Assembly (NCBI RefSeq): GCF_034479635.1
Contig: NZ_CP140153.1
Span: 1,681,501 to 1,745,500 of the forward strand
DNA: 64,000 nt
From: Guyparkeria halophila
GTDB lineage: Bacteria > Pseudomonadota > Gammaproteobacteria > Halothiobacillales > Halothiobacillaceae
Direction of reading: 5' to 3'
The translations under genes were made by a program, and so were the position numbers. This document shows, piece by piece, positions 16,208 through 36,641 of this stretch (its first letter is position 1; each line of letters opens with the position of its first letter). A model generated the notes under the pieces. It searched no databases, was not told the origin of the DNA, and saw only the letters and a list, made by a program, of their open reading frames with translations.

Positions 16208-17587
16208 TCAGCTCGCGAGCGCCTGGCCGGCCCCCTCGGCGATCACCCGGTCACGTCCTCCCGACTTGGCGGCATAGAGGCGCGAGTCGGCCAGCTTCAT
16301 CAACGGTTCGGCGCTGGTGAGACGGTCGTCGGCGGTGCAGGAGACCCCGAGGCTGGCCGTGACCGACAGCGTATGCCCGGCAATCTCCACCTGGCTCTGG
16401 GCCAGGGCAAACCGGATGCGCTCGGCCACATCCTGACCATCCTCGATATCCGAGCCGGGCAGGATGGCGATGAACTCCTCGCCACCGTAGCGCATCACCA
16501 CGTCGCCCTTGCGCAGCATGTCGCGGATGACGCTTGCGGCACGCACCAGCACCTTGTCGCCGGCCAAATGGCCGTAGGTGTCATTAAGGCGCTTGAAGTG
16601 ATCCAGGTCGACAATGATCAACGAGAGTGGCGTCTGGTTGCGCTGGATGCGAGCCAGTTCCTCCTCGAGACGCTTCATGCCGAAGCGGCGGTTGTACAGC
16701 CCGGTCAGCGGATCGAGTGCCGCGACCCGCTGCAGGTCGTCGTGCAGCAGCGCGTTGTTCAGTGCCAGGCCGAGCCCCTGGATCATCAATGGCAACAGGC
16801 GGGTGGTCTTGTCGCTGAAGGGAGAGGCCGCCGCCAGCACGACCCAGCCAAGCAGCAGGCCGTGGTGCTTGATCGGCAGCAACAGCACGTCACTGGGCAT
16901 GAAGTGCGAGAGCACCGCATCGACCTTCACCTCGGCCGGCAGGTCGTAGCGTCGAACCGCCGCCTGCTCGTGGGCCGCCTGCAGCGCGGAGCTCTTGAGG
17001 ATCGCCTCGGGCTCGATCAACCCCGTGGAGGCGGGGATGGTCCATTCGCCCTGCTTTTCCAGGATGATCGCGCCGCCATCGGCCTCGGAATGCTCGATCA
17101 GCAGTGCCAGTGCCTGCTCGCTCAAGTCGTGCAGGTCGAGCTGACTGGAAAGGGTGTTGTTAAAGTTCTGGATGCGCTCCTCAACGCGATGGGCGGCGTG
17201 AAGTGCCTGCAACAGGGCGTTGTAGCTGTCGGCCACGTCGCCGAGTTCATCCTCGGCCTGCTCCTGGAGCTGGCAAACCGACGGATCGCATTCCGACCAG
17301 TCACCCGAATAGGTGGCCTGGTCCATTGCCGAACGCACCTGACGCATCCGATCGGTCAGCCGGCGCAGCCGTGGCCGCACGATGCGACTGGCCAACGCGA
17401 AGTTGAGCCCACCCACGATCAGGCCCGCGGCCAAGGTGGTGACGATAAAGCTTGGTGACAGGGCCAAGTCGGCCGACACCCCCAGCTCCATCGCGACGAG
17501 CGGGAAGATTGCGCCGGTGAGAATCCCCAGTGACACCATGCCCCAGGCAAGCGCTCGAAACACATGCTTCGATCGGTAGAAACTCAT
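16208..17587 (-). CDS. Membrane GAF-type diguanylate cyclase (GGDEF)
   Basis: 459 residues. Two membrane segments (about 11-36 and 45-70) are followed by a HAMP-like linker, a GAF-like sensor region (about 150-290) and a GGDEF domain. The active site is RYGGEEF at about 366-372, and RKGD five residues before it is the inhibitory I-site. It should make c-di-GMP from two GTP at the inner membrane. Start ATG 17587 has AGGG and AAGG upstream; an earlier TTG 45 bases before is less likely. Ligand of the sensor part is unknown. One of three GGDEF proteins in the window. Confidence 0.9.
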   Translation of the reverse strand: MSFYRSKHVFRALAWGMVSLGILTGAIFPLVAMELGVSADLALSPSFIVTTLAAGLIVGGLNFALASRIVRPRLRRLTDRMRQVRSAMDQATYSGDWSECDPSVCQLQEQAEDELGDVADSYNALLQALHAAHRVEERIQNFNNTLSSQLDLHDLSEQALALLIEHSEADGGAIILEKQGEWTIPASTGLIEPEAILKSSALQAAHEQAAVRRYDLPAEVKVDAVLSHFMPSDVLLLPIKHHGLLLGWVVLAAASPFSDKTTRLLPLMIQGLGLALNNALLHDDLQRVAALDPLTGLYNRRFGMKRLEEELARIQRNQTPLSLIIVDLDHFKRLNDTYGHLAGDKVLVRAASVIRDMLRKGDVVMRYGGEEFIAILPGSDIEDGQDVAERIRFALAQSQVEIAGHTLSVTASLGVSCTADDRLTSAEPLMKLADSRLYAAKSGGRDRVIAEGAGQALAS

Positions 17588-17803
17588 CCTTGTTTCCCTC
17601 GCTATGTACGATTTGACGCCGGACGTTAGCATGCCGCGACGGATTAATAACCCCCTGGTTTGCGCGGAAATATCACCGACAATCGATCGGGCTTCCCCAG
17701 CGATTCTCCCTGTGGTCTACCCTTTCCGGCAGCCGAATCGGCGCATCAGCCGACGACCCAACCGTCATCCCCCACGCTGAGTCCACCACACCGAGGTAAT
17801 CGC

Positions 17804-25321: not shown

Positions 25322-25936
25322 TCACAGGGCCCCCTCGTCGCGCAATACCTCGGCGATGCGCTCGGCCATGGCACGATAACCGTCGGCGTTCAGATGGACG
25401 GCGTCGGCCTTGTACCCCGGGCGACGTAACAGGCCGGCGACCAGGTCATCCAACAGGACCACGCCGTGCTCCTCGGCCAGTTCCTCGTAGAGGGGCGCGG
25501 ACTGCGAGAACAAGGACTTCTCCGGCACCCCGACGAGCACCACGGCCACGTCATGTGCCTGAGCCTCTTCGATCATCCGGGCCAGGTTGCGCTTGGCCTC
25601 GGCCAGATCCTGGTTGCGCAGCACGTCGTTGCCGCCCATCAGGAGGATCATCAGGGCCGGCGCCTGTGTCTCGATGGTCTCCGGCAGGCGGGCCAGCCCG
25701 TCGGCGGTAGTCTCGCCGGCCACGCCGGCATTCACCACGGTACGTCCCGTCAGCCGGGCAAGCTGCGCGGGATAGGCCGCCCCGTCCGGCGCACCCACGC
25801 CCTCGGTCAGGCTATCGCCAAACGCCAGAATGGTCGCATCACGTGGCAGCGGCTCGAGTGCCGGCTCGCCGCAGCCCGCCAATGCCAGCACGACAATGGC
25901 CAACAGCCAGCGGCCTGATCGTCCCCACCCTGTCAT
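25322..25936 (-). CDS. GDSL-family esterase/arylesterase lipoprotein (TesA-like)
   Basis: 204 residues. The signal peptide ends in the lipobox LALAGC, so the enzyme is probably lipid-anchored in the periplasm. SGNH blocks are present: AFGDSLTEGVG (block I, Ser), VVNAGVAGETT (II, Gly), LLMGGNDVLR (III, Asn), and DAVHLNADGY (V, Asp and His). Such enzymes hydrolyse thioesters, aryl esters or lysophospholipids. Start ATG 25936 shares one base with the stop of the GGDEF gene (TGATG), so the two are coupled. Confidence 0.9.
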   Translation of the reverse strand: MTGWGRSGRWLLAIVVLALAGCGEPALEPLPRDATILAFGDSLTEGVGAPDGAAYPAQLARLTGRTVVNAGVAGETTADGLARLPETIETQAPALMILLMGGNDVLRNQDLAEAKRNLARMIEEAQAHDVAVVLVGVPEKSLFSQSAPLYEELAEEHGVVLLDDLVAGLLRRPGYKADAVHLNADGYRAMAERIAEVLRDEGAL

Positions 25937-26901
25937 CAATGACTTGTCGCCTCCTTTCGCGCGGCGCGTTTCTCCTCGAGCATGGCGCGATCCGCCTCGA
26001 TCACCGCCGACTCGATACCCTGACGCGGGTCGCGTGCCGACCAGCCCACCGAGGCTTCGACACCAACCTCCGCCAGTGCCCGGCGGATCTTGGCCTCGAT
26101 GCGCCGGCCCGCGTCGGCCCCGCTCTCCATGCAGAGCACGGCGAACTCGTCGCCGCCAATGCGTGCCACGGCATCGGTGTCGCGCATTGCAGTGCGCAGC
26201 GACTCGCCGGCAAGTCTCAGCAATTCGTCGCCGGCGTCGTGCCCGTGGGTGTCGTTGATTTCCTTGAGGCGGTCCAGGTCGATGATGACCACCGTCGCCG
26301 GACTACCGTAGCGGCGGGCCCGGCGTTCCTCGATCTCGAGCCGTTCGTGCCAACCACGGCGGTTGAGCAACCCGGTCAGCGGATCGAGGCTGGCCTCTTC
26401 TCTGACCGCCTGCAGTGTGCGCGCCAGTTCCACGCGCTGGAGTTCGGCCTCGAGGAGGCTGCCCAGCAGGCGGGCGAACAGCCGGATCAGGGGCAGCTGC
26501 ACGTTGAGTGCCTCAGGCTGCGGATCGGGATCGATTGCGCACAGGGTGCCGAACAGCTCGCCATCGGCGCGCCGAACCGGCACGCCGATGTAGGCCCCGA
26601 TCGGCACCTGACGTCCGATGGGGGCCTCCCGGTAGCTCGCGACCTCGTTGGCATCGGGCGCGGTCTGCGGCCCCTCGCCCGCCACCATCAGCGCACAGAA
26701 CGAGTCGGCCCAGCGCAGCACATCGCCATCGCCCACCGAGTAGCGATCTCCCTCCGCCTGCAGGATGATCCAGTCCTCGCCCTCGGTGCGGGTCATCATC
26801 CATAACCCCAACCCGGTGCGTTCGCGCAATTCCGCCAAGACGTTCCGACAGGCGGAATCAAATCCCGTGAATGGCAATGCGTCGTCGGGGTTTCCGGTCA
26901 T
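25936..26901 (-). CDS. GAF-GGDEF diguanylate cyclase, soluble
   Basis: 321 residues with no membrane segment. The N-terminal GAF domain (about 15-150) has GAYIGVPVRRADGELFGTLCAID. The GGDEF domain carries RIGGDEFAVL (GGDEF at about 249-253) and an I-site RDTD five residues before. It should make c-di-GMP in response to a small ligand or light/redox cue sensed by GAF. Start ATG 26901 has GAGGG upstream. Operon with the GDSL esterase. Confidence 0.92.
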   Translation of the reverse strand: MTGNPDDALPFTGFDSACRNVLAELRERTGLGLWMMTRTEGEDWIILQAEGDRYSVGDGDVLRWADSFCALMVAGEGPQTAPDANEVASYREAPIGRQVPIGAYIGVPVRRADGELFGTLCAIDPDPQPEALNVQLPLIRLFARLLGSLLEAELQRVELARTLQAVREEASLDPLTGLLNRRGWHERLEIEERRARRYGSPATVVIIDLDRLKEINDTHGHDAGDELLRLAGESLRTAMRDTDAVARIGGDEFAVLCMESGADAGRRIEAKIRRALAEVGVEASVGWSARDPRQGIESAVIEADRAMLEEKRAARKEATSH

Positions 26902-27130: not shown

Positions 27131-27745
27131 ATGATCGAACTTCGGACGTACGTCTTTATCGACTCGCTCCAGCCCCAGTTGGCTGAGTACTTGGCGACGG
27201 CGTCCCAGGGCTTTTTGCCGGTCCCGGGCGATGCCTGCCTGTGGGTGGAAGTCTCGCCGGGCATGGCCGTCCACCGGCTGACCGACATCGCGCTCAAGGC
27301 CTCCAGCGTCCGTCTGGCGCAGCAGGTGGTCGAGCGGGCCTTCGGCTCGATGGTCATCCACCACCGCGTGCAGAGCGACGTGGTCCAGGCCGGCAACATG
27401 GTACTCGAGTACCTCGGCCGCGAGCAGACCGAGCGCCAGCCCTGCGAAATCGCCTGGCAGGAAATCATCCGCGGCATGACGCCGGACCACACGGTACTGA
27501 TCAACCGCCAGAACCGCCGCGGCAACATGATCCTGCCGGATCAGAGCATGTTCATTCTCGAGGTCGAGCCGGCCGGTTACGTCGTCTACGCTGCCAACCA
27601 GGCGGAGAAGGCGGCCAACATCTCGCTGATCGACGTGCGCGCGGTGGGCAAGTACGGCCGCCTGACCATCGCCGGCACCGAAGGCAACGTCGACGAAGCC
27701 GCCCGCGCGGCCATCGCCGCGGTCAAGAACCCCGCCATGACCTAG
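27131..27745 (+). CDS. csoS1D: Tandem BMC-domain shell protein, CsoS1D-like
   Basis: 204 residues with two BMC domains (about 1-98 and 99-204). The start [20 protein letters not shown] and the blocks [38 protein letters not shown] and [20 protein letters not shown] match my memory of carboxysome CsoS1D. The Glu-Arg pair that gates the CsoS1D pore is kept (E68-R69). The Prochlorococcus protein has about 50 extra N-terminal residues, which are missing here, as in sulfur bacteria. CsoS1D trimers stack in pairs to make a gated shell pore. No Rubisco, csoS2, csoS3 or csoS4 genes are within the window, so it stands apart from any main cso cluster. A Nudix gene follows by 12 bases. Confidence 0.85.
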
Positions 27746-27757
27746 GGGCGCCGACTC

Positions 27758-28309
27758 ATGCATCGCTGCGACCTGCTTGACCAACTCGCCCGCTACGACA
27801 CGCGCTACCTCGACGAGGCCGCCTTCGTTCAGCGTGCGCGACAGTTCGTCGCCACGCACCCCGACACCTTCTACCGCGAGCACCTGCCCGCCCACGTCTC
27901 GGCCTCCACCTGGGTGGTCAACCCCTCGCGCACCGCGGTGCTCTTGATGCACCACCGGAAGCTCGACTGCTGGCTGCAGCCCGGCGGGCATGCCGACGGC
28001 GACACCGACATGCGCAGCGTGGCCCTGAAGGAATGCATCGAGGAGACGGGCGTCTCGCCCGAGCATGTCCGACTGGTCGGCGACGAGATCTTCGACGTCG
28101 ATATCCACGCCACACAGGAACCGCACCCGGATGCCCAGCTCCATCACCACATCGACGTGCGTTACCTGGTGGAAGTCGACGACAACGTGCCCGTGCCGGG
28201 CAACGACGAATCCTTCGAGCTGCGTTGGGTGCCGGTCTCCATGGTCACGCGACTGAACAACAGCCGTTCGACCCTGCGCATGGTGGACAAGACGCGCAAG
28301 ATGCGTTGA
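27758..28309 (+). CDS. Nudix hydrolase
   Basis: 183 residues. The Nudix box reads GHADGDTDMRSVALKECIEETGV: the core E-x-x-E-E is kept, but the usual Glu after Gx5 is Thr and the Arg of the REUxEE is Lys. The LQPGGHADGD start is typical of one Nudix subfamily, so it may still be active. An N-terminal helical extension (about 1-45) precedes the fold. It follows csoS1D by 12 bases in the same direction and is probably co-transcribed. Substrate (nucleotide diphosphate derivative) unknown. Confidence 0.87.
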   Translation: MHRCDLLDQLARYDTRYLDEAAFVQRARQFVATHPDTFYREHLPAHVSASTWVVNPSRTAVLLMHHRKLDCWLQPGGHADGDTDMRSVALKECIEETGVSPEHVRLVGDEIFDVDIHATQEPHPDAQLHHHIDVRYLVEVDDNVPVPGNDESFELRWVPVSMVTRLNNSRSTLRMVDKTRKMR

Positions 28310-28481: not shown

Positions 28482-29270
28482 GTGTTCTGGTATTTCGGCT
28501 TCGGATCCAATCTGGACATGACGTCGCTGCGTGCCAAGGGTGTGCAGCCGGTCCGTTCGCAGCCGGCGGCACTGCCGGGCTGGCGGCTGCGATTCAACGT
28601 CCGGCATTTCTTTCGTCACGAAGGCGGCGTGGGCAATATCGAGCCCTCCGACGCCCCGGGCGACCAGGTATTGGGCGTGCTGCACGAGTGCCCGGACGAC
28701 AGCCTGCCGACACTCGACCAGGCCGAGGCGCGAGGTGTCGGCTACGACCGGATCGTGGTCGACGTGGAAACCGCCGCGGGCACCGTGCCCGCCTTCGCCT
28801 ACGTGGGACGTCCCGATTTCATCGATGAGAGTTGTCTGCCGAGCCGCCGCTACCTCAACATCCTGTTGCGCGGTGCGCGGCTGGCGGAACTCGACCCGGC
28901 CTACATCAAGCGACTGGCGCACCAGCCCACCCTGGCCGTCGTCGCTGCCCCACCATTCGAGCATCCCCCGGGTCCCCACCCGATCTTCAACGCCGACTCA
29001 CTGCGCGCCCACCCCGACTACACCGCCCTCTACGGCGCCGTCTTCGACATGAGCGACGCGCGACCCAGCCACGACTTCCTCAAGGGCCTGTTCGGCGGAC
29101 GCGACATGACCCTGTTCCACCTGCAGCGCATGGACTCGAGCGATGGCAACGAGACGCTCGATGACATCCGCGCCGACCGTCTCGACGAGGCGCAGCGACG
29201 CTACCTGAACGGCTATCTGCAGGAATACAAACGGGAATACCGATATATCGGCCGCTTCGCGTACTATTGA
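28482..29270 (+). CDS. Gamma-glutamylcyclotransferase-like protein
   Basis: 262 residues. FWYFGFGSNLDMTSLRAKG is the glycine-rich BtrG/GGCT substrate loop, and VLHECPDDSLPTLDQAEARGVGY carries the conserved Glu region (about residue 85). AFAYVG follows. These enzymes release 5-oxoproline from gamma-glutamyl compounds. A C-terminal extension of about 100 residues beyond the GGCT fold (after residue 155) is unassigned. Start is GTG 28482 with GGAG upstream. The 170-base gap before it is C-rich with short CCTCCCCG repeats. Confidence 0.82.
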   Translation: MFWYFGFGSNLDMTSLRAKGVQPVRSQPAALPGWRLRFNVRHFFRHEGGVGNIEPSDAPGDQVLGVLHECPDDSLPTLDQAEARGVGYDRIVVDVETAAGTVPAFAYVGRPDFIDESCLPSRRYLNILLRGARLAELDPAYIKRLAHQPTLAVVAAPPFEHPPGPHPIFNADSLRAHPDYTALYGAVFDMSDARPSHDFLKGLFGGRDMTLFHLQRMDSSDGNETLDDIRADRLDEAQRRYLNGYLQEYKREYRYIGRFAYY

Positions 29271-29301: not shown

Positions 29302-30045
29302 ATGACCGCACTGCCCGATGCCCTTTCGCATGGCCCCATCAAGGAGATCTTCCCGGACGTTTTCTTCGTCTCTGGCGCGATGGAAACCTGTCTGATGGAT
29401 ATGGACTGGAAGTTCAGTCGCAACATGACGGTGGTCCGCGACGGCGATCGACTCACTATCATCAACAGCGTCCGGCTGGACGACGAAGGGCTCGCCGCGC
29501 TCGACCAGCTGGGCCAAGTGACCGACGTGGTTCGCCTGGGCTCGCTGCACGGTCGCGACGACCCGTTCTACGTCCAGCACTACGGCGCCCGCTACTGGAT
29601 GATGCCGGGCATGGAGCACGAAACCGGCCTGCCGGCGGACGAAACGCTTTCGGCGGATGCGCCACTGCCGATCGCCGACGCCGAGCTGTTCACCTTCGAG
29701 ACCACCGCGATCCCCGAAGGTATCCTCCACATCGACCGGGCCGGCGGCATCCTCGTGGCCTGCGACGCGCTGCAGAACTGGGAGGCACCAGACGAGTTCT
29801 TCTCCGACGGCTCGCGCGACATGATGCAGGAAATGGGCTTTTTCAAACCGGCCAACATCGGCCCGTTGTGGATGCAGAAGGCCGAACCGCAGGCCGATGA
29901 CTTCCACCGGCTCATGCAGCGGGATTTCCGGCACGCCCTCTGCGGCCATGGCTCGCCGCTGTGCGATACCGCCCGCGACGACTTCGCCGCCACCGTCGAT
30001 CACTTCTTCGGCCGCCCGGGCACCGCCCAGACCGCCACCGAATGA
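29302..30045 (+). CDS. Metallo-beta-lactamase-like protein of unknown function
   Basis: 247 residues. The strand pattern and spacing (MTVVRDGDRLTIINSV, then GSLHGRDDPFYVQHYG, ILHIDRAGGILVACDALQNW and LCGHGSPL) resemble a metallo-beta-lactamase fold. Of the usual HxHxDH ligands only H and DD remain, so metal binding may be changed or lost. Start ATG 29302 has AAGGAGG. It lies between the cyclotransferase and the large signalling gene, in the same direction, but no link is evident. Confidence 0.55.
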   Translation: MTALPDALSHGPIKEIFPDVFFVSGAMETCLMDMDWKFSRNMTVVRDGDRLTIINSVRLDDEGLAALDQLGQVTDVVRLGSLHGRDDPFYVQHYGARYWMMPGMEHETGLPADETLSADAPLPIADAELFTFETTAIPEGILHIDRAGGILVACDALQNWEAPDEFFSDGSRDMMQEMGFFKPANIGPLWMQKAEPQADDFHRLMQRDFRHALCGHGSPLCDTARDDFAATVDHFFGRPGTAQTATE

Positions 30046-30145: not shown

Positions 30146-33100
30146 ATGCACGGCAACGGCCCGCCACTTCCCGGCTACGAGATCGGTCCCGTATTGCGAC
30201 GGGGCCGCGATCGGATCATCTATGAGGCCCAGCGGGGCGAAAGCGAGCAGCGAGTCGTCATCGAGACACTCGCCAGCGACTATCCCACTCAACGCCAGGT
30301 CGCCGAGATCCAGCGTGACGGGCGACTCGCCCGCCGCCTCGCCTCGGTCGCCGGCGTGCTCAAGGTCCACGCGGTTCGACCCCATGGCAGCGGCAACGTC
30401 GCGCTGATCACCGAACCGATCGTGGACACCCTGGCCGACCGGCTGGCGCGCAATGGCGGCGACGGCCTCCCCCTGGCCGAGGTGCTCTCGGTCGGCCGGC
30501 AACTGACCCACATTCTCGATGGTCTCCATGCCAGCAGCATCGTCCACAAGTCGATCACCCCGGAGCATGTCCGGCTCGACTCGGTCGATGGCACCTTGCG
30601 ACTCGCCGGCTTCGGCATCGCCTCGGAACTGGATCGCGAGCGCCAGTCCCGGCTGGACCACGGCCTCGAATCGCTACTGCCCTACCTGTCCCCCGAACAG
30701 ACCGGCCGCATGAACCGCGAACTGGACTACCGCAGCGATTACTACTCGCTGGGGGTGACCCTGTTCGAGCTGCTCACCGGCCGGCCGCCGTTCCAGGCCG
30801 ACAGCGTGCTTGAGTGGGTTCACCACCACATCAGCCGGCGGCCGCCCTCGCCCCGCGATTTCGTGCCCGGCATCCCCACCGCTGTCTGTGACATCGTGCT
30901 CAAGCTGCTCGCCAAGAACCCGGACGAGCGCTACCAAAGCGCCCATGGCCTGACCATGGACCTGCAACGCTGTGTCGAGTCGATCGAGGCCGGCCAGTCG
31001 CTGAGGACGTTCAACCCCGGCCAGGACGACCGGTCGCGCCGATTCACCCTGCCTCAGACGCTCTATGGGCGCGAACGGGAACTCGACATCCTTGGCGAGC
31101 TGTTCGAAAACGCGGCCGACGGCGGCAACGAACTGTGCCTGGTGCATGGCTTCTCCGGCGTGGGCAAATCGGCGCTGGTTAACGAGATCGATCGCCCGCT
31201 TGTCCGCCAGCGCGGCTTCTTCGCCCAGGGCAAGTTCGACCAGTTTCACACCGCCAGCTACGGTGCGGTGGCCGCCACCCTGCGCAGCCTGGTCCGCCAA
31301 CTGCTGTCCGAGTCCGAAGACCGGCTCGCCGGCTGGCGTCAGAAGCTGACGCAGGCGCTCGCACCCAATGCGCGGCTGGTGATCGACCTGGTGCCCGAAC
31401 TCGAGCTGATCATCGGACCGCAACCGCACGTCGCCGACCTGCCACCAGCCGAGGCACGCAATCGCCGACAGATCGTCCTGGTCACGTTCGTCCGCCTGTT
31501 TGCCACCGCCGATCATCCACTGGTGCTGTTTCTCGACGACCTGCAATGGAGCGACGGACCGACACGCGATCTGATCGCACAGCTGGCCGTCAGCCGCGAC
31601 CTGGGCCATCTGCTGCTGATCGGCGCGTATCGCAGCAACGAGGTCGGTCCCGGACACCCGCTGCGGCTGATGCTCGACAACCTGCGCTCGGCGCGCACAT
31701 TCCATGACCTGCCGGTAAAACCGCTCGACCGGACCTCCATTCACCACCTGGTCACCGACACCCTGAAAGCCGATGCCGACCGAGTTCGCCCCATGAGCGA
31801 TCTCATCTACAGCAAGGCACAGGGCAACCCGTTCTTTACCAACGAGTTGTTGCAGACACTGCACGACGAGGAGGTGATCCGCCCCACGCCGAACCACGAC
31901 AGCTGGGACTGGGATCTGAATGCCGCCATCTGGGCGGGGTTCAGCGACGATATCGTCGAGTTCATGGTCTCGACGCTGAAAAAGCTTCCCGGCGAGACGC
32001 AGCACGCCCTCCAGCTCGCCGCCTGCATCGGCAGCACCTTCGATCTGAAGACCCTCGCGATCATCTTCGAGCGCTCCAGCGACGAAACCGCCAACGCCCT
32101 GATGCCCGCGTTGCGACAGCACAGCGTCGTTCCATTGCATCCCGAATACCGTCTCGTGGGCCGGACAGCGCCCCGGGACGACGAACGGGTCACGACGTTC
32201 GACTGGAACCCGGCCTACCGATTCGTCCATGACCGAGTGCAGCAGGCGGCCTACACGCTTTCCGACGCCCGTCACATGGAGGCAGTCCACCTGTCCATCG
32301 GCCGGCTGATGCGCCGCCACGCCGGCGGCGAGCCTGAAGGCGACCGCCTGATGGAAATCGTCCGCCACCTCAATGCCGGGCGGGCGCTTATCGACGACCC
32401 GGGCGAACGACTGACGCTGGCCGGCCTCAACTTGCGAGCTGGCCGCCAGGCCCACGGTGTCGCGGCCTACGAGACCGCGCTGACATGCCTGCAGACCGGC
32501 TGGGATCTGTTGCCGGCCAATCCCTGGTCAACGCATCCCGATCTCGCCATCGATCTCGGGCGGGAAATCCAGCAATGCGCCTACCTCACTGGCCGGCAGG
32601 ACGAAGCCGAACGCTGGACCGAGATCCTGCTCCACCAGGCGAGAAACGACTTCGAGAGAGTGGAATTCCTCTCGGCCCGGACGCGCCAGTACGCCACCCT
32701 GGGACGCATGGACGATTCCATTCGTGCAGCCATTGACGGCCTCGTCCTGCTCGGCATGCCGGTCGACCACCATCCGAGCGAGGCGCTGGTCCGCGAGGAA
32801 CGCGAACGGATCACCATCAATCGCGCCGGTCGACGCTCCGAAGAACTGGTCGACGCCCCGCCGGTGAACGATCGCTCGGTCCTGCTGGCCATGCGCCTGC
32901 TGATGGAAATCTTCCCGGCGTCGTTCCTCTCGGGCAGCGGCAACCTGTTTCCCTATCTCGTCCTCCGGGCGGTGAACCTCTCGCTGCGCCACGGCAACTG
33001 CCCCGAGTCGGCCTTCGCCTACGCCGCCTACGGCATGCTGCTCTGCGGCGATCTGGACGACCCCGCCGCCGGCCACGAATACGGCCGGATCGGTCTCGCC

Positions 33101-35236
33101 ATCAACGAGCGCCTTGACGACATCACCCTGAGAGCACGGGTGATCTACGTCTACGCGATGTTCGTCCATCACTGGAACGAACACTGGTCCACGCTCACGC
33201 CCTGGTTTCACGAAGGTATCGAGGCGGGCTATCAGTCCGGCGACCTCCTCTACCTGGCCTACAGCGCGCAGGACTGCGTCATCTGGGACCCGACTCTCGA
33301 CCTCCCGGAAGCGACCCGTCGGCACGAGGAGAACCTCGAGATCGTCCGCGAGTGCGATTACCGCGACTCGCTCGATTCCGCCACCCTGTTCCTGCAGATG
33401 CAGTACGCCCTGCAAGGTCGCACCGAGCATGTCTGCTCCCTGAACGACCCGCAGTTCGACGAGGCCGCCTGCCTCGCCGGCATGCACGACCGCCAGTTCA
33501 TGACGGGGGTGGCCAACTATCACATCTACAAGGCCGAGGTTTGCTTCCTGCACGGTCAGGCCGGGCAGGCGCTCGACCACCTCCAGGACCAGGCGCGGCT
33601 GATCCGCTCGGCGATGTCGCTGCCGCAGCTGGTGCGTTTCTACCTGATCGACTTCCTCGCCAACGTCACTTGCTTCCCCGAGCGCGCCGACCAGACCGAG
33701 GATCCCGTCGCCCAGCGCCTGCAACGCGACCTTGGCCGGATCCGTCGCTGGGCGGACAACTGTCCCGAGAACTTCCGTCACCTGCAATACCTGATGGAGG
33801 CCGAGCTGGACGCGGTGGCCGGAGAACCATCAGCGGCCATGGAACGCTTCGATGCCGCCATCGCCGCTGCCGGCGAAAGCGGTTTTAGCCGCGACGAGGC
33901 CATGGCATGCGAACGCGCTGCCATCTACCTGCTCAACCTCGGCCGGCAACGGGCCGCCGAAGGCTACCTGCGGGCGGCACACCGCCTTTATTCGCGCTGG
34001 GGCGCCCGGCGCAAGGTTGCCCTGCTCGAGGATCAGCATCCGGTCCTGCACGAGATCACCGGTGAAGGCGCACGGGGACGCATTGATGGCTTCCACCTCG
34101 ACCTTGCATCGATAATGAAGGCATCGCGCGCCATTGCCGGCGAAATGCGAACAAAAAGCCTGCTGCGCACCAGCATGGACATCCTGCTGGAAAATGCGGG
34201 CGGCCAGTGGGCCTGCCTGGTCCGCCATCATGACGGCCAGACGCAGGTAGAGGCCGTGGGCGGCGACGTGCCCGAACCCGGGACCGGCCTGCCCCGCTAC
34301 GCACGCGCCATCGACCCGGTCGGCCGCATCGTGCCGATCCCGATGACACTACTCAGCCACGTCCTCGCTAGCGGCGAAACCGTGGTGCTGGACGACGCCG
34401 CCGAAGTGGGCGCCTACAGCGAAGACCCTTGCATTGCCGCCCGGCGCCCCCTGTCGGTCCTCTGCGTCCCATTGCAACGCGAAGGCTTCGTCGGCGCGCT
34501 CTACATGGAAAACAATCTCGCCGCCGGGGCATTCACCCAGGATCGGGCCGAGGTAGTGCGCCTGCTCGCCGCTCAGGCCGCGGTCGCCCTGGAGAATGCC
34601 CGCCTCTACGAACAGATCCAGGACTATTCCCATACGCTCGAGGCCCGCGTGGCCGAACGCACCGAGCGCCTCGAACAGCTCAACAGCGAGTTGCAGAACC
34701 TCGCCGAACGCGACGAACTCACCGGGCTGGCCAACCGGCGCCGCGGCAGCAGCTACCTGCGGGAGACCTGGGAGACCCTGCGCCGCGAACAACGCCCGCT
34801 GTCCGTGGTCATGTTCGACGTCGACCATTTCAAGGCCTACAACGACAACTACGGCCACCCAATGGGCGACCGCTGCCTCAAGGCCATCGCCCAGACCGTC
34901 AACGAGACGCTCAAGCGCCCGGCCGACCTGGCGGTCCGCTACGGCGGCGAGGAATTCCTGATCATCCTCCCCGGCACGGACGCACCGGGTGCCGCCACCG
35001 TCGCCGAACGGCTGCGCCAGGCGGTCAACGACAAGGGAGTGCCGCATGCCCACTCCTCGACCGAAACCGTCGTGACCATCAGTGTCGGCGCCGCCACCCG
35101 CATCCCAAGCGAGGACGATGCCGAAGACCTCTTGATTCACCACGCCGACGCCGCGCTCTATCGGGCCAAGCGCGCCGGGCGAAACCGCGTGGAAGTCGGC
35201 GAAGCGATACACAGCGACGACCGCGCGCCATCCTGA
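30146..35236 (+). CDS. Giant signalling protein: pseudokinase, AAA ATPase, TPR-like, GAF and GGDEF
   Basis: 1696 residues. N-terminal Ser/Thr kinase fold (about 8-285) with the three catalytic positions lost: beta-3 Lys is Glu 40 (VVIE), HRD is HKS (134-136), DFG is GFG (155-157); the SPEQ segment and C-lobe remain. An AAA_16-type ATPase follows with Walker A GFSGVGKS (335-342) and Walker B VLFLDDLQW. A long helical repeat region leads to GAF (about 1340-1490), a short coiled coil and an active-looking GGDEF (GGEEF at 1600-1604, I-site RPAD). Relatives end in a histidine kinase; here the output is a cyclase. Start ATG 30146 has AGGGG upstream. Likely cytoplasmic. Confidence 0.88.
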   Translation: MHGNGPPLPGYEIGPVLRRGRDRIIYEAQRGESEQRVVIETLASDYPTQRQVAEIQRDGRLARRLASVAGVLKVHAVRPHGSGNVALITEPIVDTLADRLARNGGDGLPLAEVLSVGRQLTHILDGLHASSIVHKSITPEHVRLDSVDGTLRLAGFGIASELDRERQSRLDHGLESLLPYLSPEQTGRMNRELDYRSDYYSLGVTLFELLTGRPPFQADSVLEWVHHHISRRPPSPRDFVPGIPTAVCDIVLKLLAKNPDERYQSAHGLTMDLQRCVESIEAGQSLRTFNPGQDDRSRRFTLPQTLYGRERELDILGELFENAADGGNELCLVHGFSGVGKSALVNEIDRPLVRQRGFFAQGKFDQFHTASYGAVAATLRSLVRQLLSESEDRLAGWRQKLTQALAPNARLVIDLVPELELIIGPQPHVADLPPAEARNRRQIVLVTFVRLFATADHPLVLFLDDLQWSDGPTRDLIAQLAVSRDLGHLLLIGAYRSNEVGPGHPLRLMLDNLRSARTFHDLPVKPLDRTSIHHLVTDTLKADADRVRPMSDLIYSKAQGNPFFTNELLQTLHDEEVIRPTPNHDSWDWDLNAAIWAGFSDDIVEFMVSTLKKLPGETQHALQLAACIGSTFDLKTLAIIFERSSDETANALMPALRQHSVVPLHPEYRLVGRTAPRDDERVTTFDWNPAYRFVHDRVQQAAYTLSDARHMEAVHLSIGRLMRRHAGGEPEGDRLMEIVRHLNAGRALIDDPGERLTLAGLNLRAGRQAHGVAAYETALTCLQTGWDLLPANPWSTHPDLAIDLGREIQQCAYLTGRQDEAERWTEILLHQARNDFERVEFLSARTRQYATLGRMDDSIRAAIDGLVLLGMPVDHHPSEALVREERERITINRAGRRSEELVDAPPVNDRSVLLAMRLLMEIFPASFLSGSGNLFPYLVLRAVNLSLRHGNCPESAFAYAAYGMLLCGDLDDPAAGHEYGRIGLAINERLDDITLRARVIYVYAMFVHHWNEHWSTLTPWFHEGIEAGYQSGDLLYLAYSAQDCVIWDPTLDLPEATRRHEENLEIVRECDYRDSLDSATLFLQMQYALQGRTEHVCSLNDPQFDEAACLAGMHDRQFMTGVANYHIYKAEVCFLHGQAGQALDHLQDQARLIRSAMSLPQLVRFYLIDFLANVTCFPERADQTEDPVAQRLQRDLGRIRRWADNCPENFRHLQYLMEAELDAVAGEPSAAMERFDAAIAAAGESGFSRDEAMACERAAIYLLNLGRQRAAEGYLRAAHRLYSRWGARRKVALLEDQHPVLHEITGEGARGRIDGFHLDLASIMKASRAIAGEMRTKSLLRTSMDILLENAGGQWACLVRHHDGQTQVEAVGGDVPEPGTGLPRYARAIDPVGRIVPIPMTLLSHVLASGETVVLDDAAEVGAYSEDPCIAARRPLSVLCVPLQREGFVGALYMENNLAAGAFTQDRAEVVRLLAAQAAVALENARLYEQIQDYSHTLEARVAERTERLEQLNSELQNLAERDELTGLANRRRGSSYLRETWETLRREQRPLSVVMFDVDHFKAYNDNYGHPMGDRCLKAIAQTVNETLKRPADLAVRYGGEEFLIILPGTDAPGAATVAERLRQAVNDKGVPHAHSSTETVVTISVGAATRIPSEDDAEDLLIHHADAALYRAKRAGRNRVEVGEAIHSDDRAPS

Positions 35237-35282: not shown

Positions 35283-36641
35283 ATGACCACCCCGCCCTTC
35301 ATCATGGGTGCCCGCTCACGGGCGGCGCTGTTCGCCCTGGCGCTGACCGCCGCCCTCGCGACGCCACAAGTGCAAGCGACGACCGAATCGGACGGTGTCG
35401 TCTACGACCTTGGATCAGAGTCCACACTGCGCAACCTTTATCCGGACGCCTCCTGGCTGCCTGCGGCCTACGCCGGGGACTACACGAACCTGGCCGAGAC
35501 AATCGAGCACTACACCGAGCAGTCACTGCGCCGGGATGGTGTCGAAGCCCCACGGGTCGACGTCCGATTCGTCGATCGGGACTCAACCCGGACCGTCCGG
35601 GTGACGATTCACCCAGAAAACGAAATCACACGCCGCTATGCCGACTTGCATCCGGCCTTCTTCGATTCGGATCACGCCGGCCAGGCCCGCGCCGGTGTGG
35701 AAGCTTGCAAGGCAGCAAAGGGCTGCTGGGACCCAAAACCGCGCCAGGGCCAACCTTGGGCGATGTTCCTGCCGCTTGGCCTGCCCATGGCGACCCAACA
35801 GACCGTGCTGTTTCTCGATTACCCACCCATTCCCGCACTGACCGGCCGCGATTACCTCAACAACTACACCATGTGCCGCTGGGGCCGGGTCATGGGTGCG
35901 GCAGGCGCGGATACCCCCACGGCCTTTGAAACCATCGTCGATGCCCGCCCGATCGCCGCGCCCGGAAGTGGCGAATCGCAGTATCTTCCCGACCCGATCA
36001 CGCGTTTCGACACCAACACGGCTACCGGCGCTGACTACCTCAGCCCCATGCTGCGGTTGCTAACCGAGACCGATCAGGCCTCCCGCCCGGTCGCGGTATT
36101 CGGTTCCGATGCCCGAAACGCGTGGGCCCGCATGGTGGGTCGCACGTCGGTGGATGTGCTCGACGCCGGTACCACGCATCTGGCAAAGGACGCCCCGGCC
36201 ACACCCTGGATTGCCACCAACCACCCCGACGTCACCTCGTACAACTGCTGCCCCGGCGATCCGGCCTCCCGCTGTGGCGACAGTCACAATCTGGTCGCTG
36301 ACGAGAAAAAGGATTTTGTCGCCGCCTGCTGGCTGATCACCATGAGTGAAAAGCCGGGACAGTCCCCCGAGACCGTCCGGCAACAATGCGAGAACCGCTG
36401 GATGAACGCCCCCGACGATCAGGCGCAGCAGGCACTGTGTGTACAGGCCAAACTCGACAACAACAATCCAGCAGCCACCTGCCGTTCATACACCGACGCC
36501 TGGAATTACTGCTCGGCGCACAACACGAATGCCTGCGCCAGCTACGACTGTCACTACGATCTGGACAAGGTGAGCCAGCCGGTGCCCGCGCCATCTGAGC
36601 GACCGGCGGGGTGGGGCCAGACCTGCAACCAGTACCGTTGA
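35283..36641 (+). CDS. Exported Cys-rich protein of unknown function
   Basis: 452 residues, not recognised. A signal peptide (ALFALALTAALATPQVQA, cleavage near residue 33) is clear. The last 200 residues have about 14 Cys, in pairs and short spacings (CCPGD, CACASYDCHYD-like), which suggests many disulphides outside the cytoplasm. The N-terminal part has VYDLGSESTLRNLYPDASWLP. The mid part has YLNNYTMCRWGRVMG. Conjugation pilus-type (TraU-like) proteins have similar Cys-rich ends, but no transfer genes are near, so I do not claim that. Start ATG 35283 has CAGGAG. It follows the giant GGDEF gene by 46 bases, so both may be one transcript. Confidence 0.65.
   Translation: MTTPPFIMGARSRAALFALALTAALATPQVQATTESDGVVYDLGSESTLRNLYPDASWLPAAYAGDYTNLAETIEHYTEQSLRRDGVEAPRVDVRFVDRDSTRTVRVTIHPENEITRRYADLHPAFFDSDHAGQARAGVEACKAAKGCWDPKPRQGQPWAMFLPLGLPMATQQTVLFLDYPPIPALTGRDYLNNYTMCRWGRVMGAAGADTPTAFETIVDARPIAAPGSGESQYLPDPITRFDTNTATGADYLSPMLRLLTETDQASRPVAVFGSDARNAWARMVGRTSVDVLDAGTTHLAKDAPATPWIATNHPDVTSYNCCPGDPASRCGDSHNLVADEKKDFVAACWLITMSEKPGQSPETVRQQCENRWMNAPDDQAQQALCVQAKLDNNNPAATCRSYTDAWNYCSAHNTNACASYDCHYDLDKVSQPVPAPSERPAGWGQTCNQYR

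Follow-up and report, generated by a model that had tools for sequence, protein, structure and literature searches.

The 64,000-nucleotide stretch of the Guyparkeria halophila genome analysed here (hereafter the window) contains a three-gene operon, absent from the preliminary description of this DNA, in which genes A (28482-29270), B (29302-30045) and C (30146-35236) follow one another on the plus strand. Just upstream of the operon, on the same strand, lie genes for a CcmP-like BMC shell protein (27131-27745; NF053796, 230 bits, under the cut-off of 340) and a Nudix hydrolase (27758-28309). Directly 3′ of gene C, also on the plus strand, is a gene (35283-36641) for a 452-aa protein with a signal-peptide-like N-terminus and no Pfam or NCBIfam match.

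Gene C encodes a 1696-aa product in a single uninterrupted open reading frame, and homologue alignments begin near residue 7, favoring the start at 30146 over a longer frame from 29897. Four Pfam domains within this one frame bear out the original view of a giant kinase-like/ATPase/GAF protein ending in a diguanylate cyclase. These domains, all on the plus strand, are a kinase-like domain at residues 23-267 (30212-30946; Pkinase, E 6e-18, 66 bits), also recognized by AlphaFold and Foldseek; a STAND-like AAA_16 ATPase domain at residues 305-492 (31058-31621; E 3e-38, 133 bits); a GAF domain at residues 1338-1482 (34157-34591; E 4e-10); and a GGDEF diguanylate cyclase domain at residues 1521-1681 (34706-35188; E 1e-48), with the motif GGEEF at residues 1600-1604. 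An RxxD I-site at residues 1591-1594 (34916-34927) was identified from the alignment of close homologues, and alignment with sister proteins delimited a putative signaling-helix linker at residues 1487-1520 (34604-34705). The middle region of about 830 aa (residues 496-1320; 31631-34105) belongs to no recognized family, giving no Pfam match at E<=5 and no PDB sequence match. Gene C is present in single copy in the complete, single-contig genome of 2.45 Mb. Its GGDEF region matches more than 30 places in this 2.45 Mb genome, a high density, and two further GGDEF genes within the window, at 25936-26901 and 16208-17632 on the minus strand, have GAF-GGDEF and HAMP-GAF-GGDEF arrangements.

Gene A, the first of the operon, has a GTG start and encodes a 262-aa protein that Pfam places among the GGACT/AIG2-type gamma-glutamyl-cyclotransferase-like proteins, with both AIG2_2 (41 bits) and GGACT (34 bits) scoring over cut-off. 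The motif YFGxGSN and E82, which we take to be the catalytic Glu, are invariant among 16 homologues, so that gene A combines a match to the GGACT/AIG2 family with the putative catalytic Glu of a gamma-glutamyl cyclotransferase. Gene B encodes a 247-aa protein without a Pfam or NCBIfam match, and its predicted structure (AlphaFold pLDDT 93) has a metallo-beta-lactamase fold. The best PDB match by Foldseek was 2P97, a putative metal-dependent hydrolase (E 1.5e-11, probability 1.00), followed by the VIM/GIM metallo-beta-lactamases, with 345 PDB chains in all matching at E<=0.001. Where the HxHxDH metal motif is expected, gene B reads HGRDDP, retaining the first His and the Asp alone, and its invariant residues are H83, D86, D87, D155 and H216; lacking part of the metal motif, the product of gene B may be no enzyme. 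On a 1.85 Mb replicon of Vibrio, a relative of gene B (L221, 8001-8747; 37% identity) stands alone, with neither A nor C.

We assembled 142 distinct homologous sequences from GTDB genomes and from whole-genome searches of relatives, the class, the order and the groups containing positive genomes. The search recovered 37 other proteins with a GGDEF end, and together with the window protein these form a clade of 38 spanning several gammaproteobacterial orders, in which the kinase domain could be read in 37 members, the window included. As proposed earlier, the kinase has lost its catalytic Lys (of the VAIK motif) as well as the Asp of both HRD and DFG, with E40 (30263-30265), S136 (30551-30553) and G155 (30608-30610) standing at those three positions, and the losses are common to all 37 readable kinases: position 40 is E in 36 and V in 1, position 136 is A in 30, S in 6 and G in 1, and position 155 is G in 36 and R in 1. 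Homologues outside the clade have K, D and D at these positions in 92, 82 and 88 of 93 sequences, respectively, and the metal-binding Asn is found in 13/37 kinases of the clade versus 86/93 of the other homologues. Since close homologues share the losses, the objection that homologues keep these residues and that the three changes are sequencing errors fails, and losses fixed across 37 proteins likewise exclude chance. The clade also carries Arg at position 19 (30200-30202 in gene C) in 35/37 members where relatives mostly have Glu or Asp, so that where relatives commonly show E19/K40 the clade shows R19/E40, a combination found in 34/37. R19 is a possible charge-swap partner of E40.

The kinase domain of gene C is nevertheless under purifying selection. 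Its predicted structure is confident (AlphaFold pLDDT 90.7) and has Mycobacterium tuberculosis PknB as its best PDB match by Foldseek, giving a pseudokinase: a predicted kinase fold without the catalytic Lys, HRD Asp and DFG Asp. The catalytic-loop HK and an SPEQTGR segment are retained in the clade as structural landmarks. That the domain is a decaying vestige, phosphorylation having become dispensable once the output changed, would fit the loss of all catalytic positions and the presence of the metal-binding Asn in just 13/37. However, this explanation is improbable given the pattern of constraint. Kinase-domain dN/dS was 0.03-0.16 in six close pairs, close to and within the range of the AAA, GAF and GGDEF domains, so that decay is unsupported by dN/dS; within-clade identity was 63% for the kinase domain, similar to 62% for GAF and 65% for GGDEF; the domain was lost in none of the 37 members; and the substituted residues are in turn conserved (E40 36/37, G155 36/37, R19 35/37). 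Together, the fixed losses, the low dN/dS and the confident predicted fold suggest that the kinase domain has been retained for a purpose other than phosphotransfer.

We considered whether the domain could be an unorthodox active kinase using other residues, or an ATP-binding pseudokinase acting as an ATP/ADP sensor. Some proteins lacking the canonical kinase residues are active or bind nucleotide, and ATP is still bound, or even used, by certain pseudokinases whose motifs have eroded; in the clade, the acidic residue of helix alpha-C is mostly retained (E in 32 and D in 4 of 37). Set against this are the replacement of Lys, HRD Asp and DFG Asp together, the last by Gly, the variability of the metal-binding Asn and the absence of the Mg-ATP ligands, which make such a function rather unlikely. 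We infer that the kinase domain of gene C is biochemically inactive.

The remaining two nucleotide-handling domains gave the opposite picture, consistent with the earlier view that the P-loop ATPase and the GGEEF motif look active. The AAA_16 domain of gene C contains both a Walker A (GFSGVGKSA) and a Walker B (LVLFLDDLQWSD) motif, with membership in the STAND ATPases assigned by Pfam alone and the nSTAND6 profile reaching 19.8 bits, under its 27.7-bit cut-off. Across the clade, the Walker A residues K341 and S/T342 are present in 37/37 members covering them and the Walker B DD in 38/38. The GGEEF motif and the other GGDEF catalytic positions (the metal Asp and the Lys/Asn substrate residues) are conserved in 38/38, pointing to an active cyclase, and the RxxD I-site is nearly as well kept (R 36/38, D 37/38), so that product inhibition would be expected.

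Phylogenetic analysis of the AAA-middle region, from which the kinase and output domains were excluded, placed the diguanylate cyclase-ended proteins in one clade of 38 (SH-aLRT 100). The sister group comprises L046, from a gammaproteobacterium, and L049 and L050, from Bacteroidota, all with class III cyclase outputs, and L048 and L188, from Gallionella, with SpoIIE outputs. All of these sister proteins retain intact K/D/D kinases. Among 82 C-termini of the wider family, Pfam detected HATPase/HisKA in 46, class III cyclase in 12, GGDEF in 9, SpoIIE in 4, EAL in 2 and STAS in 1. The expectation that relatives have a working kinase and a histidine-kinase end thus holds for the majority of distant relatives, whose kinase looks functional (46/82 C-termini), but not for the closest, which are the 37 GGDEF-ended proteins with every readable kinase dead; for the immediate sister group, the part concerning intact kinases stood, but the ends are nucleotide cyclases or SpoIIE phosphatases rather than histidine kinases. 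Homology between the clade and its sisters extends through the GAF domain and ends at the linker helix before the output, so that the output is an exchangeable cassette with its swap point at the GAF-linker boundary.

The tree and the intact sister kinases map kinase loss and GGDEF gain to the same branch, as far as sampling resolves; the sequence of L190, the basal clade member, is cut off by the end of its contig ahead of the kinase domain. The two changes amount to one main event, and across independent GGDEF acquisitions their association was not significant, with just 4 independent pairs. A strict rule that a GGDEF output implies a dead kinase is not supported in the wider family, where L139 has a GGDEF output with an intact K/D/D kinase; L127 and L138, with GGDEF-EAL outputs, have lost the HRD Asp as their only catalytic residue. 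In the family of the Amphritea genome, the histidine kinase-type paralogues L167-L175 mostly have Gln or Lys in place of the HRD Asp and retain the VAIK Lys, and by these residues are a second, independent origin of putative pseudokinases within that family. A copy at 52-61% identity (L129, L143, L144; G060 C1:794504-797017) is interrupted by stops and frame changes, the mark of a pseudogene or else of a fault in the assembly.

Analysis of the surrounding genes revealed that A and B are almost obligate companions of gene C. Clustering of neighbors at the 12 clade loci with long flanks showed A and B alone to be conserved, in 12/12, on the same strand and directly upstream of C; most loci have 18-24 nt between B and C, with wider gaps of 57 nt in Thioalkalivibrio halophilus and 100 nt in the window. 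Among 116 genomes of the Amphritea family, the diguanylate cyclase-type giant was present in 21, with adjacent A and B in 21/21, and none of the 95 genomes without the giant had both A and B (A alone in 1 and a 42% B-like protein in 1); because these genomes are related, the counts are not independent events. At the loci of four sister proteins (L046, L048, L049 and L050), genes A and B again lie directly upstream at short distances; they were not found in the flanks searched around L052 and L054. Their presence upstream of sister proteins with other outputs indicates that the partnership predates the output swap.

This linkage raises the possibility that C itself senses nothing, the sensing (or the making of the ligand) falling to A and B, with C a mere c-di-GMP transducer whose pseudokinase docks A or B. 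Both the near-obligate A-B-C linkage and its occurrence in operons with other outputs and intact kinases would be expected from such an arrangement. The same operons, however, show the linkage to be independent of the state of the kinase; A and B accompany C whether its kinase is dead or intact, so docking specifically on the dead kinase is not indicated, and we hold this explanation to be tentative, with less than an even chance of being right.

The giant was found in 2/27 genomes of the window's own order, both in the window's own genus, and its nearest outside relative in the tree is from Thioalkalivibrio halophilus, a patchy distribution as after transfer or repeated loss. No plasmid-borne copies were found at >=60% identity, the best being 36%. 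Patchiness, and the occurrence of STAND-like ATPases in defense, would suit a defense or stress module in which the ATPase senses an invader and the cyclase makes an alarm messenger. We give this very little credence, since GGDEF/c-di-GMP signaling is usually regulatory, the typed neighbors in the window resemble ordinary metabolic and signaling genes, and the output may be a cyclase, a phosphatase or a GGDEF domain, depending on the protein.

Instead, with moderate confidence, we favor a model in which a conserved A-B-C module controls c-di-GMP, C being a soluble STAND-type switch whose kinase domain is a folded, non-phosphorylating element for allostery or docking. The signal would probably be a metabolite that A and B produce, remove or carry, and its detection in C would fall to one or more of the pseudokinase at the N-terminus, the middle region and the GAF domain; in view of gene A, the obvious first candidate is a gamma-glutamyl compound. 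ATP binding by AAA_16 would then alter the oligomeric state or conformation of C, and this change would be relayed via the GAF domain and signaling helix, pairing two GGDEF domains to make c-di-GMP, while inhibition by the product through the I-site would keep output in check. In this model we infer the direction of signaling, the ligand and any physical contact among A, B and C, and the input could equally be the ~830-aa middle region, the GAF domain or the two partner proteins rather than the dead kinase.

On a broader scale, we put at about even chances the proposal that a GGCT-like protein, a degenerate MBL-fold protein and a pseudokinase/STAND/GAF chassis constitute a horizontally spread three-gene module whose output has been exchanged among a c-di-GMP cyclase, a class III nucleotide cyclase and a PP2C-type phosphatase, and that the change to a c-di-GMP output was accompanied by conversion of the kinase into a pseudokinase whose ATP site has swapped charges (R19/E40), making the module the bacterial equivalent of the receptor guanylyl cyclases. 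The family offers a natural experiment on kinase-like domains in giant bacterial sensors, in which the same chassis and partners occur with the kinase intact or dead: versions with an intact kinase pair with cyclase or phosphatase outputs, and the fixed dead kinase with a c-di-GMP output.

Comparison with published systems suggested that several parts of this architecture have precedents. In the HstK-type dual kinases (cbSTKIII), such as Anabaena Alr2258, a Ser/Thr kinase domain and a GAF domain precede HisKA (PMC2176072). The kinase, AAA, middle and GAF regions of gene C are homologous to this chassis in full-length alignment with family members from cyanobacteria and elsewhere. For cyanobacterial relatives sharing the HstK architecture, about 1300 residues align and identity is 32-36%, Alr2258 itself being likened by architecture. 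Unlike these proteins, gene C has a GGDEF rather than a histidine-kinase output, lacks competent Ser/Thr kinase residues and sits in an operon with A and B. The A-B-C operon also gives a defined set of three genes through which to seek the signal of the HstK-type family. A Clostridium thermocellum protein of 1826 aa with kinase, TPR and GGDEF domains was reported in 2005 in a survey that lists it as a kinase and set aside sequences without catalytic residues (PMC1262709). By description, it resembles gene C in its size, N-terminal kinase domain and C-terminal GGDEF domain, and differs in that the kinase of gene C is dead and accompanied by an A/B operon, none being reported there. Kinase-GGDEF proteins were thus known before, whereas the conserved A-B-C module looks undescribed: in the open-license literature we found no description of the A-B-C operon or, by title and abstract, of a pseudokinase-diguanylate cyclase fusion.

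In gene C the AAA_16 domain keeps its Walker motifs and precedes a long stretch devoid of catalytic motifs, an arrangement similar to that of MalT-like STAND ATPases; gene C differs in its fused kinase-like, GAF and GGDEF domains. The hybrid histidine kinases of the Candida albicans CHK1 type (PMC9069115) by description also place a Ser/Thr kinase-like domain and a GAF domain ahead of the output, but are eukaryotic and end in a histidine kinase. Finally, in receptor guanylyl cyclases such as GC-C and GC-A the pseudokinase is believed to serve as a scaffold and to relay the signal (PMC10400071), and by analogy the gene C pseudokinase would act as an allosteric or docking part. The likeness, a pseudokinase and dimerization domain ahead of a nucleotide cyclase, is one of analogy and not descent, since the receptor guanylyl cyclases are membrane receptors that produce cGMP and have no AAA or GAF domain; gene C thereby offers a bacterial pseudokinase-cyclase for comparison with them.
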